Part shown: one piece after another, positions 2,640 through 7,844 of the stretch
Position numbering within the stretch: position 1 is the first letter of the stretch
How the letters are laid out: the number at the start of each line of letters is the position of its first letter
Source of the DNA: Thermoguttaceae bacterium
GTDB taxonomy: Bacteria > Planctomycetota > Planctomycetia > Pirellulales > Thermoguttaceae
Direction of reading: 5' to 3'
Length of the DNA stretch: 64,000 bases
Assembly (NCBI GenBank): GCA_028695965.1
Contig: JAQVHZ010000007.1
Span: 1-64,000, forward strand
Notes under the pieces: model-generated
What the model was told of the DNA's origin: nothing
Database searches by the model: none
Seen by the model: only the letters and a program-made list of their open reading frames with translations
Made by a program: the position numbers and the translations under genes

Positions 2640-2657
2640 GAACGGAAAGGTACTTTG

Positions 2658-4181
2658 ATGAGCAACCGCGTTCGTCAAATGCGAGAAGCGCTTGGCGTCA
2701 ACCATGAAGATTTTGCCGCGCAAGTGAATGTGTCTCCGCGATTTCTAGTCGCATTAGAGGAGGACGCCTGCGTAGTCGGCGTCGACGCGGCGATAAGAAT
2801 TGCACGCGCATTAGGGACGACGGTCGAGCAGCTCTTTGGAGACCTGCCGGAGAACGATGCGTTTACTGGAGCGGCGGCAACTGCGGCAGAGCCTGACGTC
2901 AAACCTGTGAACGCCGAGGAACCGGAGCCGTCTGCAGAGCCGAAAAAGCGACGCAAGGCGACTCCGCATAAGAACAAGTCTGCGGCGTCTACATCGCTGG
3001 AAGATCCTGCGGTCGAACCCCCAAAGGTCGCGCCTTACTCGACTGAATTAGAGCAGAAAACGCTTGACGAACTTTTGCTTGAAGAAGACGCTTCTCCACG
3101 CTTGGCGCTTGAAACGGTTGAGTCTGCGGAACCGCGCAGAGTCAACGCGCCTCTGCGCAGTCAGAAAGTTTCGTCGAGTTTTTCGAAGACGGCGCAGACG
3201 GACGGTCTTGCTGATTCGCCCGTGGGGCTGACAGATCCTACGCTTGGACGCCCCATTCGTTATTTCGACCTCTTTTGTGGAATTGGCGGCTTTCATTACG
3301 CCGCGCAAAAGGTCTTCGCGCAGATGAAGCGCACGAGCGAGTGCGTCATTAGCTGCGACGTCGACAAATATGCGCAGCAGAGTTACGCCGCGAATTTTGG
3401 CGCGACGCCTTTTGGAGACGTTTCTCGACTCTCTTCTGAAGATATTCCTGATTTTGATCTTCTCTTTGCAGGTTTTCCGTGTCAAACGTTTTCAATTATC
3501 GGTTTGCGCAAAGGTTTTGCAGACGAAACGAAAGGCTCTCTTTTCTTTCAGATAGCCCGCGTCTTGAAGGACAAGCGGCCGCGCGCGTTTGTCTTGGAAA
3601 ATGTTCGCCAACTTACGACGCACGATTCCGGACGAACCTTTCAGATAATCTTACGCGTTTTGCAGGAGGAACTTGGATACTTCGTTGATTGGCGTATTCT
3701 GAACGCGCTCGAATGCGGTCTTCCTCAGAAGCGCGAGCGCGTTGTCGTCGTCGGTTCGACAGAGCCGTTTGAGATGGAATGGCCCAAACCGATCGAGCCG
3801 ACTCCATTGAGCGACCTCTTGGAGGATGATAAAGACGTCGATCAGAAGTATTTTGCGTCTCCGGAGATTGTTCGCAGGCGGAAAGAAGCGCATCAATCGG
3901 AGTTTTATCCTTCGATTTGGCATGAGAATAAGTCGGGCAATATCTCTTCGTATCCGTACAGCTGCGCATTGCGCGCTGGAGCGAGTTATAATTACTTGCT
4001 CGTTAATGGCGAACGTAGATTGACCCCGCGAGAAATGTTGCGTTTGCAAGGTTTCCCAGACAATTTCAAGATTGTAGTATCCGATACCCAAATTCGTAAG
4101 CAGGCTGGCAACGCCGCGCCTGTCCACCTAATTCAACGCGCGCTTGAGCGGTTTTTGCCGCTGGTCTTTGTGAAGAAATGA
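2658..4181 (+). CDS. DNA (cytosine-5-)-methyltransferase with N-terminal XRE helix-turn-helix
   Basis: Transfers a methyl group from AdoMet to C5 of cytosine in a specific DNA site. Residues about 1-65 form an XRE/Cro-type helix-turn-helix, followed by a low-complexity Glu/Pro/Lys linker to about residue 195. The methyltransferase core then shows motif I (FDLFCGIGGF), motif IV with the catalytic Cys (GFPCQTFS), motif VI (ENVRQL), motif VIII (QKRERVVVVG), motif IX (RLTPREMLRLQGFP) and motif X (QAGNAAP). The ORF track begins at a TTG at 2655; the ATG at 2658 is preferred because GGAAAGG lies 8 nt before it. The stop overlaps vsr by four bases (ATGA). In known enzymes such as M.SsoII and M.EcoRII an N-terminal HTH lets the methyltransferase repress its own operon; that role here is inference. 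No restriction endonuclease is recognisable nearby. Confidence 0.95.
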   Translation: MSNRVRQMREALGVNHEDFAAQVNVSPRFLVALEEDACVVGVDAAIRIARALGTTVEQLFGDLPENDAFTGAAATAAEPDVKPVNAEEPEPSAEPKKRRKATPHKNKSAASTSLEDPAVEPPKVAPYSTELEQKTLDELLLEEDASPRLALETVESAEPRRVNAPLRSQKVSSSFSKTAQTDGLADSPVGLTDPTLGRPIRYFDLFCGIGGFHYAAQKVFAQMKRTSECVISCDVDKYAQQSYAANFGATPFGDVSRLSSEDIPDFDLLFAGFPCQTFSIIGLRKGFADETKGSLFFQIARVLKDKRPRAFVLENVRQLTTHDSGRTFQIILRVLQEELGYFVDWRILNALECGLPQKRERVVVVGSTEPFEMEWPKPIEPTPLSDLLEDDKDVDQKYFASPEIVRRRKEAHQSEFYPSIWHENKSGNISSYPYSCALRAGASYNYLLVNGERRLTPREMLRLQGFPDNFKIVVSDTQIRKQAGNAAPVHLIQRALERFLPLVFVKK

Positions 4182-4732
4182 CGGACGATTCGAAGAAGCG
4201 CGCGGGCGCTGGTAAGAGACGCGCAAGTAAGCGCCCCATTGTCCTGCCGAAGCTCCCGGAACTTCCGCAAGGAGACGATTCGCCAGAAAAATTTGACGTT
4301 TTTGACGCGTCAAAACGTTCGGAGATTATGAGCAAAGTCAGGTCGACGAAGAACAAGTCGACAGAGTTGCGCTTGATACAAGAATTTAAGCGACTAGGAA
4401 TTACGGGCTGGCGCAGGCACGTCAAGATTGTTGGCAAACCTGATTTTCTCTTTCGGAAGCTGCGTATCGCGTTGTTTGTCGACGGATGTTTCTGGCACGG
4501 GCACGACTGCCGCAATACAAAGCCGAAGGATCATGCGGATTATTGGCGCGCCAAGATTGAACGCAACCAGATTCGGGATCGCGCCGTAACGGAACGTCTT
4601 CAAGCGCTAGGGTATCGTGTCATACGCATTTGGGAATGTGATTTTAAAAAGGCGAACGCCGAACGACTGGAAGAAAATTTGCGACCGATTGTTGAAGCGC
4701 TTGAACGTATTCAATCGGAATCGAACTCGTAA
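4178..4732 (+). CDS. vsr: Very short patch repair (Vsr) mismatch endonuclease
   Basis: Vsr nicks beside T:G mismatches that arise when 5-methylcytosine made by a Dcm-type enzyme deaminates, starting short-patch repair. The core carries the family signatures KRSEIMSKVRSTKNKSTE, KPDFLF (the Asp of the metal site) and FVDGCFWHGHDC, then YWRAKIERNQIRDR and VIRIWECDF. At 184 residues it is about 30 longer than the E. coli enzyme (156) because of a Lys/Arg/Pro-rich N-terminal extension of about 40 residues. Its ATG overlaps the methyltransferase stop (ATGA), the usual Dcm-Vsr coupling. A degraded second copy of the last 70 bases of this gene lies at about 5949-6017, upstream of the second CDF gene. 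Confidence 0.95.
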   Translation: MTDDSKKRAGAGKRRASKRPIVLPKLPELPQGDDSPEKFDVFDASKRSEIMSKVRSTKNKSTELRLIQEFKRLGITGWRRHVKIVGKPDFLFRKLRIALFVDGCFWHGHDCRNTKPKDHADYWRAKIERNQIRDRAVTERLQALGYRVIRIWECDFKKANAERLEENLRPIVEALERIQSESNS

Positions 4733-4746
4733 AACTAAACGTTGCT

Positions 4747-5883
4747 ATGGAATTGTTAAAAAAAATTCTGAAACTTGACGACGATCAACGAAAAAACACA
4801 ATCGTTCTTACTTCTACCCTTGGAATCGTCGTCAATCTGCTTATTGCTGTCGCGAAGATTCTTATTGGCGTTTTGGCCTCGTCAATAGCAATCATCTCCG
4901 AAGGCGTCCACAACGTTACTGACGCAATGACTTCGTTTTTATCGCTTATTGGAGTGAAACTTGCCGATAAACGCCCCACCGAAAAACACCCGTTTGGATA
5001 TGGGCGGATTGAATACCTCGCAAGCCTTACGATAGCGGTTCTAATTTTGGTCGCAGGTGTGGAGATGCTGCTCGGCTCCTTCAAATTAATACTGAAGCCT
5101 GCTGAATTGTCGGTTACCTACGGCGCTCTTGTTTTCATTGCTGCGACGGCGGTTGTGAAGTATTGGCTTGGCGTCTATACGATTAGAAAGGGCAAGGACG
5201 TCGATTCCGGCTCTCTCGTCGCCATTGGGCTTGAAGGGCGCAACGACGCGTTTATCTCGGCTGTAACAATCGCGTCTGGACTAGTCTTTTTGGTTCTTCA
5301 TTATTCTGTTGACGCGTATGTTGGCGTTTTTCGGTCCTTTATTGTTATCAAAACCGGCGTTGACGTTTTGCTTGAATCAGTGGGACAATTGCTCGGCCGC
5401 GCCGGCAAAAAGGAGCTTGCGGATCAGCTCTATCGTGAGATTCTCGAAACAGAGGGAATTATTAATGCTGCCGATATGATTTTGCATAATTATGGTCCAA
5501 ACGCTTGGTCGGGTTCCGTTAATGTTGAGGTCGATCATTCGAAGACAGTTGGAGAAGTCTATCTGTTCCTCCACAGCCTGCAATTACGAATCATGCATGA
5601 GCACAATGTTACTATGGTCTTTGGCGTCTACGCGACGGGAATCGATCATAAGGATTACGTTTATCTTCGAGAACTTATTGTGCAATTCGTCCAAGGGCAG
5701 AAGCATATCAAGAATTTCCACGCGCTCTATTTGGATTCCAATACGAATAGAATTTACTGTGATTTTGTCGTTGACTACGATTTAGAGGATTGGGACGCGT
5801 TACGCGAGGAGTTCATTGCCTACATGGCAGGTTTTTATCCCGATAAAGAAGTTTATTTGACAATTGAAACAGAATTTGTTTGA
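4747..5883 (+). CDS. Cation diffusion facilitator family transporter, copy 1
   Basis: Predicted proton-coupled divalent metal exporter of the inner membrane. About six hydrophobic segments occupy residues 18-220, followed by a cytoplasmic C-terminal region of about 155 residues that appears to contain one ferredoxin-like CDF domain plus an extra similar module. Family signatures: SEGVHNVTDAMTS in TM2, the KRPTEKHPFGYGRIEYL loop, and EGRNDAFIS in TM5. The intramembrane metal site would be H55-x3-D59 in TM2 and E163-x3-D167 in TM5, which is neither the Zn (H/D...H/D) nor the Mn (N/D...D) pattern exactly. The gene starts 15 nt after vsr and may be read from the same promoter. It is clearly paralogous to the next gene. 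Confidence 0.92.
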   Translation: MELLKKILKLDDDQRKNTIVLTSTLGIVVNLLIAVAKILIGVLASSIAIISEGVHNVTDAMTSFLSLIGVKLADKRPTEKHPFGYGRIEYLASLTIAVLILVAGVEMLLGSFKLILKPAELSVTYGALVFIAATAVVKYWLGVYTIRKGKDVDSGSLVAIGLEGRNDAFISAVTIASGLVFLVLHYSVDAYVGVFRSFIVIKTGVDVLLESVGQLLGRAGKKELADQLYREILETEGIINAADMILHNYGPNAWSGSVNVEVDHSKTVGEVYLFLHSLQLRIMHEHNVTMVFGVYATGIDHKDYVYLRELIVQFVQGQKHIKNFHALYLDSNTNRIYCDFVVDYDLEDWDALREEFIAYMAGFYPDKEVYLTIETEFV

Positions 5884-5948: not shown

Positions 5949-6017
5949 GAACACCCAACAATGAAAAGATATTGCGTCCGGTTACAGAAGCGCTTGAACG
6001 AGACCAAATCGGAATCG
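5949..6017 (+). pseudogene. Decayed remnant of the vsr 3' end, duplicated with the CDF gene
   Basis: This 69-base stretch aligns with the last part of vsr (4654-4723). The blocks GAAGCGCTTGAACG and TCGGAATCG are identical and TTGCG-CCG is nearly so. In both places the match sits the same short distance (23 and 25 nt) before an ATGGAA...TTAAAAAAA start of a CDF gene. It is therefore best read as the left end of a tandem duplication whose breakpoint lay inside vsr. The copy is out of frame and non-functional. Confidence 0.7.
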
Positions 6018-6059
6018 CCCTGATGAATTATTGATCGTTACTATGGAACTATTAAAAAA

Positions 6060-7178
6060 ATGCCTGCGTCTTGGCGACGATCAGCGAAAAATGCGATTGT
6101 TCTTACTTCTTTGCTTGGAATCGTCGTCAATTTGCTCATCGCTGGCGTGAAGATTCTTATTGGCGTTTTGACGTCGTCGATAGCGATCGTATCTGAAGGC
6201 GTCAACAATTTGTCCGACGTCCTGACCTCGTTTTTGTCGCTTGTCGGGGCGAAACTTGCCGAAAAGCGGCCTAATGAAAAGCGCCCGTTCGGGTATGGAC
6301 GGATAGAATATCTCACAAGCCTTACAATTGCAGTTATCATTTTAGTCGCGGGCGTGGAGATGCTGATCGGTTCGGTCAAGTTGATTGTGAATCCCGCCGA
6401 ATTATCCCTTACCTATCTTTCTCTTATTATCATTGGAGCGACGGCGATCGTTAAGTACCAACTTGGCGTCTATACGATCAAAAAGGGCAAGCAAGTCGAT
6501 TCTGGTTCGCTGGTCGCCGTCGGTCTTGATTGCCGCAACGACGCGTTTATCTCAATTGTAACGATCGTTTCCGGATTAATCTTTTTAATTTTTCATTACT
6601 CGATCGACGCGCATATTGGCGTCTTTATGTCCTTTGTCGTTATCAAAGCAGGCGTTGACGTTTTGTGGGATTCGATCAGCGAATTGCTTGGTCGTTCTGG
6701 TAAAAAGGAACTTGCGGATCAGCTTTATCGTGAGATTCTCGAGACGGATGGAATTATTGACGCCGCCGATATGGTTTTGCATAACTACGGACCAAGCGCT
6801 TGGTCGGGGACCGTTAATGTCGAAATCGACCATGCGAAAACAGTTGGAGACGTCTATCTGTTCCTCCATAGTCTGCAGTTACGAATCATGCATGAGCATA
6901 ACGTTACGATGGTCTTCGGCATTCATGCAACCGGAATCGATCATAAAGAATACGTCGAACTTCGAGACGTCGTTCAGGAATTCATTCAGGAACGCGAGCA
7001 TATCAAGACCTTTCACGCGCTCTATTTAGACGCAGAAGCCAATAGAATCTACTGCGATCTGGTCGTCGACTTCGATTTAAAAGAACGGGACGAATTACAC
7101 GACGATTTTATCGCCTATATGACGCGCTTTTATCCGGATAAAGAGGTCTCTTTGAAGATCGAAACGGAATTTGTCTAA
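6060..7178 (+). CDS. Cation diffusion facilitator family transporter, copy 2 (5' frameshift)
   Basis: Paralogue of the preceding gene, similar along its whole length, including the six membrane segments, the KRPNEKRPFGYGRIEYL loop and the long C-terminal domain. Its metal site differs: N49-x3-D53 in TM2 and D157-x3-D161 in TM5, which resembles the Mn-CDF pattern. The original start appears to be the ATG at 6043, which gives MELLKKCLRLGDDQRK, matching copy 1; but a run of five A at 6087-6091 (six in copy 1) breaks that frame. The open frame listed here instead begins with an ATG at 6060 and a different ten-residue N-terminus, MPASWRRSAK, before rejoining the family at NAIVLTS. Either the gene uses the new start, or slippage at the A-tract restores the frame, or the base is a sequencing or assembly error. 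Confidence 0.85.
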   Translation: MPASWRRSAKNAIVLTSLLGIVVNLLIAGVKILIGVLTSSIAIVSEGVNNLSDVLTSFLSLVGAKLAEKRPNEKRPFGYGRIEYLTSLTIAVIILVAGVEMLIGSVKLIVNPAELSLTYLSLIIIGATAIVKYQLGVYTIKKGKQVDSGSLVAVGLDCRNDAFISIVTIVSGLIFLIFHYSIDAHIGVFMSFVVIKAGVDVLWDSISELLGRSGKKELADQLYREILETDGIIDAADMVLHNYGPSAWSGTVNVEIDHAKTVGDVYLFLHSLQLRIMHEHNVTMVFGIHATGIDHKEYVELRDVVQEFIQEREHIKTFHALYLDAEANRIYCDLVVDFDLKERDELHDDFIAYMTRFYPDKEVSLKIETEFV

Positions 7179-7317: not shown

Positions 7318-7515
7318 ATGGCAATCAAATTGAACCCCGACGAAAATGTCGTGAAGAAAGTGAAAGAAGCGCTCGCTCGGACAGGCGGGTATTGTCCGTG
7401 TCGACGGGAACGCACCCCAGAGTACAAGTGTATATGCGAAGAGTTCCGTAATCAGATCAAGGACCCGAACTTTGAGGGCTACTGCCACTGTATGTTGTAT
7501 TACAAGTCGAAATGA
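7318..7515 (+). CDS. Ferredoxin:thioredoxin reductase catalytic-subunit-like protein
   Basis: Small (65 residues) iron-sulfur/disulfide protein. The Cys pattern is that of the ferredoxin:thioredoxin reductase catalytic chain: CPC at residues 26-28, CIC at 38-40, then EEFRN and GYCHCMLYY. In the plant and cyanobacterial enzyme these cysteines hold a [4Fe-4S] cluster next to a redox-active disulfide that reduces thioredoxin. Bacterial and archaeal stand-alone forms are usually short like this one. The stop codon overlaps the frame of the thioredoxin gene, whose ATG comes 20 nt later, so the pair probably forms an enzyme-substrate unit. No ferredoxin is visible nearby. The overlapping 86-aa ORF at 7191 is a shadow. 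Confidence 0.85.
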   Translation: MAIKLNPDENVVKKVKEALARTGGYCPCRRERTPEYKCICEEFRNQIKDPNFEGYCHCMLYYKSK

Positions 7516-7535
7516 CCGACAAGAAGGAGAATGAA

Positions 7536-7844
7536 ATGGAAGTTACAATTACAAGTAAAAATTTTGAACAAGAAGTTAAAAACTCGACGACGCCCGTCCT
7601 GTTGGATTTCTGGGCGTCTTGGTGCCCGCCTTGCCAAATGCTTGGTCCGGTCTTAGCCGAGGTTGCAAAAGAGTATGCTGGAAAAGTTAAAGTCGGCAAG
7701 GTGAACGTCGACGAAGAACGAGACCTTGCTGACAAGTTTGACGTGTCGAGCATTCCGCTGCTTGTCGTAGTCAAGGACGGCAAGGTTGTCAAACAGGCAG
7801 TTGGGTACCACTCAAAAGAGCAGATTAAAGCTCTGATTAGCTGA
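7536..7844 (+). CDS. trxA: Thioredoxin
   Basis: Cytoplasmic dithiol-disulfide oxidoreductase of 102 residues, the usual thioredoxin length. It has the FWASWCPPC active site at about residues 24-32, the cis-proline region SSIPLLVV, and the GYHSKEQI C-terminal helix. The active-site dipeptide is Pro-Pro instead of the usual Gly-Pro, a change that in model proteins raises the redox potential; whether it does so here is inference. The track starts at 7512, where an ATGA overlaps the upstream stop. The ATG at 7536 is preferred because AAGGAG lies six bases before it and the N-terminus then matches the family. A strong terminator follows at 7913. Confidence 0.93.
   Translation: MEVTITSKNFEQEVKNSTTPVLLDFWASWCPPCQMLGPVLAEVAKEYAGKVKVGKVNVDEERDLADKFDVSSIPLLVVVKDGKVVKQAVGYHSKEQIKALIS

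Follow-up and report, generated by a model that had tools for sequence, protein, structure and literature searches.

Metal exporters of the cation diffusion facilitator (CDF) family combine a Cation_efflux domain and six transmembrane (TM) helices with a C-terminal domain, and this architecture is also found in the models of the two tandem CDF genes described herein. The closest match in site type to the second gene of the pair (copy 2) is MntE of Streptococcus pneumoniae, a Mn system with an ND-DD metal-site quartet; the ND-DD quartet is linked to Mn (PMC6465983, PMC5703985). The pair differs from the usual CDF by a C-terminal extension past the usual length and, for copy 2, by standing without the ancestral start.

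For this missing start, two further kinds of precedent are relevant. Programmed −1 frameshifting is described for Escherichia coli copA and bacterial dnaX (PMC5009743), with which copy 2 shares a slippery-type heptamer, a possible downstream stem and, in the case of copA, a metal-transporter gene as context. Unlike in copA and dnaX, the heptamer of copy 2 is not conserved among orthologues and lies at codons 5 to 6, beside a usable ATG, and the stem recurs in a copy for which no shift is required. The other precedent is the ordinary frameshift in one member of a tandem pair, in which a short A run likewise loses a single base and the other copy stays intact. Unlike in the ordinary case, the body of copy 2 is open from a chance ATG, so that the gene need not be dead. 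Most likely, copy 2 shows a mutation of an ordinary kind and of recent date, or else an error in the assembly, and not a new genetic device.

Source genome and gene neighborhood

The window—the whole stretch of 64,000 nucleotides that was analyzed—is part of a 78-kb contig from a rumen planctomycete, whose MAG comprises 3.43 Mb in 153 contigs and is 82% complete. The two CDF genes lie between a methyltransferase–Vsr gene pair and a thioredoxin gene, in the following order.

2655-4181: C5-cytosine methyltransferase (Dcm)
4178-4732: Vsr
4747-5883, + strand: CDF copy 1, intact, 378 aa, quartet HD-ED (ORF, Pfam, TIGR01297, family alignment)
5972-6017, + strand: remnant of the vsr 3′ end, before copy 2 (similarity to 4679-4723)
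6060-7178, + strand: transporter frame (frame B) of CDF copy 2, with 372 aa and the quartet ND-DD (ORF, Pfam, dN/dS, structure model)
7512-7844: thioredoxin

The remnant is 78% identical to the vsr 3′ end over 46 bases (E 7e-7), which shows it to be a decayed piece of vsr, carried along by the tandem duplication. Its position ahead of copy 2 means that the duplication included the end of vsr. The nearest gene-bearing relatives are a Thermoguttaceae MAG from water-buffalo rumen and another Planctomycetales MAG. Within the genus, a close CDF orthologue occurs in only two of 20 genomes, the congeneric MAGs G004 and G008. Each contains one intact CDF gene of 378 aa at the same Dcm-Vsr-CDF-thioredoxin locus. 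The tree does not fix how the two copies branch relative to the G004/G008 orthologue pair, so that the duplication may fall before or after the split from these MAGs.

Family membership and metal site

Both copies are recognized by the Pfam domain Cation_efflux (PF01545) with E-values of 3.7e-39 for copy 1 and 1.8e-39 for copy 2 (135-136 bits, cut-off 26.6), as well as by the CDF model TIGR01297 (about 171 bits each, cut-off 82.35). For the Pfam domain ZT_dimer, copy 1 gives only a sub-threshold match, and none is listed for copy 2. In the family alignment, the metal-site quartet on TM2 and TM5 reads HD-ED in copy 1 and ND-DD in copy 2. Both copies remain under all equivalog cut-offs checked (MntE, FieF, ZitB, MamM and MamB), which places them in a separate CDF subfamily. 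For the MntE equivalog NF052621, the scores are 60-63 bits (cut-off 500), and the ND-DD quartet is the one feature in common. Copy 2 is best explained as a gene for a functional-type CDF metal exporter, the metal probably being Mn.

The frame break in copy 2

The intact copy 1 starts with ATG 4747, contains an A8 run at 4758-4765 and an A6 run at 4791-4796, and ends with the stop codon at 5883. The corresponding features of copy 2 are as follows.

6043-6090, + strand: ancestral N-terminal segment (frame A), MELLKKCLRLGDDQRK (alignment with copy 1, G004 and G008)
6054-6060, + strand: A7 tract, in register with frame A as A_AAA_AAA; candidate −1 slippery heptamer (sequence)
6060-6062, + strand: ATG, first start codon of the transporter frame (ORF list, codon comparison)
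6071-6131, + strand: candidate RNA stem-loop 3′ of A7, arms about 6071-6081 and about 6121-6131 (folding z −2.27)
6087-6091, + strand: A5 run, site of frame loss, one A fewer than in copy 1 (sequence, alignment)

A preliminary description of the locus had proposed a one-base deletion in the second CDF gene, an N-terminal segment from 6043 that matches copy 1, and an ATG at 6060 that opens the transporter frame without a stop. All three points are borne out. The sole indel in the coding-sequence alignment of the two copies is the missing A at the A5 run, where copy 1 has A6; it falls at codons 16-17, and the run itself, correctly counted as five, is now placed at 6087-6091. The segment MELLKKCLRLGDDQRK opened by ATG 6043 is identical to copy 1 in 13 of 16 residues. 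The frame from 6060 (MPASWRRSAKNAIVLTS..., 372 aa) is open through to the normal end at 7178.

Hence, the conserved start ATG 6043 is out of frame with the remainder of copy 2, and its frame ends after 35 codons at TGA 6148-6150. In the transporter frame, ATG 6060 is the first ATG, GTG or TTG after a stop. Neither 6060 nor 6043 is preceded by a Shine-Dalgarno-like motif, which gives no help in choosing between these starts. Orthologues conserve the N-terminal segment as read from 6043; the loss of frame is therefore real in the sequence as given and goes beyond chance.

The ancestral frame

The orthologues of G008 and G004 begin with MKALGKYLGGGDDPRQNAIVLTS and MKALDKCLRLGDDPRRNAIVLTS, respectively, and copy 2, read in the 6043 frame, is identical to the latter over KCLRLGDD. 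Across the frame-A segment, 11 of 15 residues are identical to G004, compared with 69% for the rest of the protein. Nine of the 15 codons differ, five of them silently; the changes fall on third (7), first (5) and second (2) codon positions, although the counts are low. The alternative frame of the same stretch contains a stop in copy 1. On the evidence of these alignments, the 6043 frame is the ancestral frame of copy 2. Since the frame-A segment is as similar to G004 as the rest of the protein, its loss is either recent or only apparent.

The ATG at 6060 is an automatic by-product of the Lys-Cys pair (AAA TGC or AAA TGT; AAA TGC in copy 2), and G004 has the same out-of-frame ATG in its intact orthologue without using it. 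The preliminary description had regarded it as a new ATG that rescues the frame; a possible start at 6060 stands, but to call it new and a rescue goes too far. Within the genus, the 6043 frame is intact in G004 and G008, and no second genome of the same species was found among the 20 genus genomes.

Condition of the copy 2 gene body

The two copies share 75% protein identity over 362 codons, with a dN/dS of about 0.15. Against the orthologues, copy 2 yields a dN/dS of 0.11-0.12, with silent sites near saturation (dS ~1.7). Apart from the frame break, the body of copy 2 thus looks selected.

The structure models of both copies show six long helices and an α/β C-terminal domain. Copy 1 has, in addition, a short N-terminal helix (residues 2-8) ahead of TM1. 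In the model of the 6060 form of copy 2, the transporter is intact and the first four residues are of low confidence. Starting at 6060 replaces the N-terminal helix and drops Arg15 before TM1, a residue found in all 19 other aligned family members. The 6060 form has 15 pre-TM1 residues up to the TS motif, within the family range of 12-21; members with short N-termini are L037 and L038. A product of this length may therefore work as a transporter, as far as the N-terminus lengths tolerated in the family can tell.

Origin of the frame break

We consider it probable, with some reserve, that copy 2 is a functional gene that recently suffered a one-base deletion, which left 6060 as its only usable start. 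Copy 2 would have arisen by tandem duplication and would then have lost one A from the short A run at codons 16-17, the deletion being real in the sequenced cells. Ribosomes starting at 6043 would make a dead-end peptide of 35 residues. Any transporter now made would begin at ATG 6060 with the N-terminal peptide MPASWR; ten new residues would replace the 16-residue N-terminal segment, while the six TM helices and the C-terminal domain would stay intact. The yield of this product is perhaps reduced. The loss of the Arg is what one would expect of an accident that happened recently.

The main rival takes the missing A for an error of sequence consensus or assembly, or for a variant from a minority strain; the gene would then be intact in most cells, start at 6043 and yield the peptide MELLKKCLRLGDDQRKNA, which a correction at the A5 would likewise produce. 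We regard this as rather unlikely, although several observations speak for it. Copy 2 is otherwise intact and selected, conservation of its frame-A segment equals that of the remainder, and the affected site is a short homopolymer; moreover, the single, incomplete MAG is the only source for the species, and an error would look identical there. On the other side, a codon-usage frame scan of a sample of stretches, covering 343 kb of the genome with 244 kb called coding, revealed few other shifts. Its output consists mostly of ordinary overlapping genes, and four candidates are over 50 bases away from a stop, of which two are at N runs and two elsewhere. An indel-ridden assembly is thereby ruled out, which favors a real deletion; the scan is insensitive near gene ends, however, and copy 2 itself was unflagged, so that similar shifts can escape it. 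Furthermore, a gap flanked by repeated sequence resembles short-read scaffolding, and five A are rarely misjudged by short reads.

As to the candidates themselves, the two outside N runs are located in L054 near 4931 and in L055 near 1623; these apparent frameshifts affect an ankyrin-repeat-like protein and an integrase-like protein. L055 also contains an N run near 7481 with the same ~120 bases on either side, a scaffolding artefact.

Programmed −1 frameshifting at A_AAA_AAA would let ribosomes that start at 6043 slip into the transporter frame and produce MELLKK-MPASWRRSAKNAIVLTS..., either alone or beside 6060 starts; the product would carry the peptide MELLKKMPASWR. The motif is a heptamer of the type X_XXY_YYZ in the zero frame of ATG 6043, the −1 direction enters the transporter frame, and in-phase A_AAA_AAA is uncommon (13 in 89,362 codons). 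A downstream stem can form as well. We nevertheless hold this mechanism to be very improbable: the A tract is missing in G004 and G008, both of which are read in a single frame, so that split frames are not conserved, and a direct start at 6060 requires no shift. The same heptamer occurs in copy 1, in which a shift would run into a stop; hence, the A tract is older than the deletion. The downstream RNA structure was rejected as a frameshift stimulator, since it is common to copy 1, which needs no shift (and partly to G004), and is explained by the codons: synonymous recoding accounts for the stem in both window copies (p ~0.28-0.29). The recoding p of 0.001-0.004 for the G004/G008 stem was calculated with another genome's codon usage and is given no weight. 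The motif and its phase, which are left, argue weakly for programmed frameshifting in copy 2. It is harder still to credit that A7 serves as a −1 shift site giving a second N-terminal form beside 6060 starts, so that a Mn-type exporter would be made as two isoforms or in a regulated dose.

The preliminary description had offered three options. The best fit is either a sequence error or a mutation of recent date after which 6060 is used by default; a start switch of long standing does not fit, and slippage has little in its favor. In an old adaptive switch, ATG 6060 would long have been used by the lineage and the new N-terminus selected, in line with the variable pre-TM1 length in the family, into which 15 residues fit. 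This is highly improbable, as the supposedly disused frame has kept its identity to G004 despite a dS at which silent sites are near saturation, and the new frame lacks the Arg before TM1. Least credible of all is transcriptional slippage at A7 or A5, which would produce a mixture of mRNAs and thereby two N-termini: A runs are present at both sites, but the longest, A7, is short of the about nine from which selection against slippage-prone runs is typically evident (PMC1088944), and A7 runs occur in many ordinary genes of the source genome.

Possible divergence of the tandem pair

If the deletion is real, the locus would present a tandem exporter pair that is drifting apart, with copy 1 having changed its metal site and copy 2 keeping the ancestral ND-DD site yet having been deprived of its normal start a short time ago. 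Should the deletion be an error, the case cautions against drawing biological conclusions from one base that is absent in a single MAG.

Copy 1 (4747-5883) is the only one of 21 aligned relatives with His in place of the TM2 Asn (EGVHN for EGVNN). The quartet of the other aligned relatives is ND-DD or ND-ED, and that of copy 1 includes Glu on TM5. This pattern suggests that the metal preference of copy 1 changed after the duplication. Outside the genus, close CDF relatives (L033-L050) are found in Bacillota, Spirochaetota and Bacteroidota of the gut and rumen, a patchy spread that suggests transfer between phyla.
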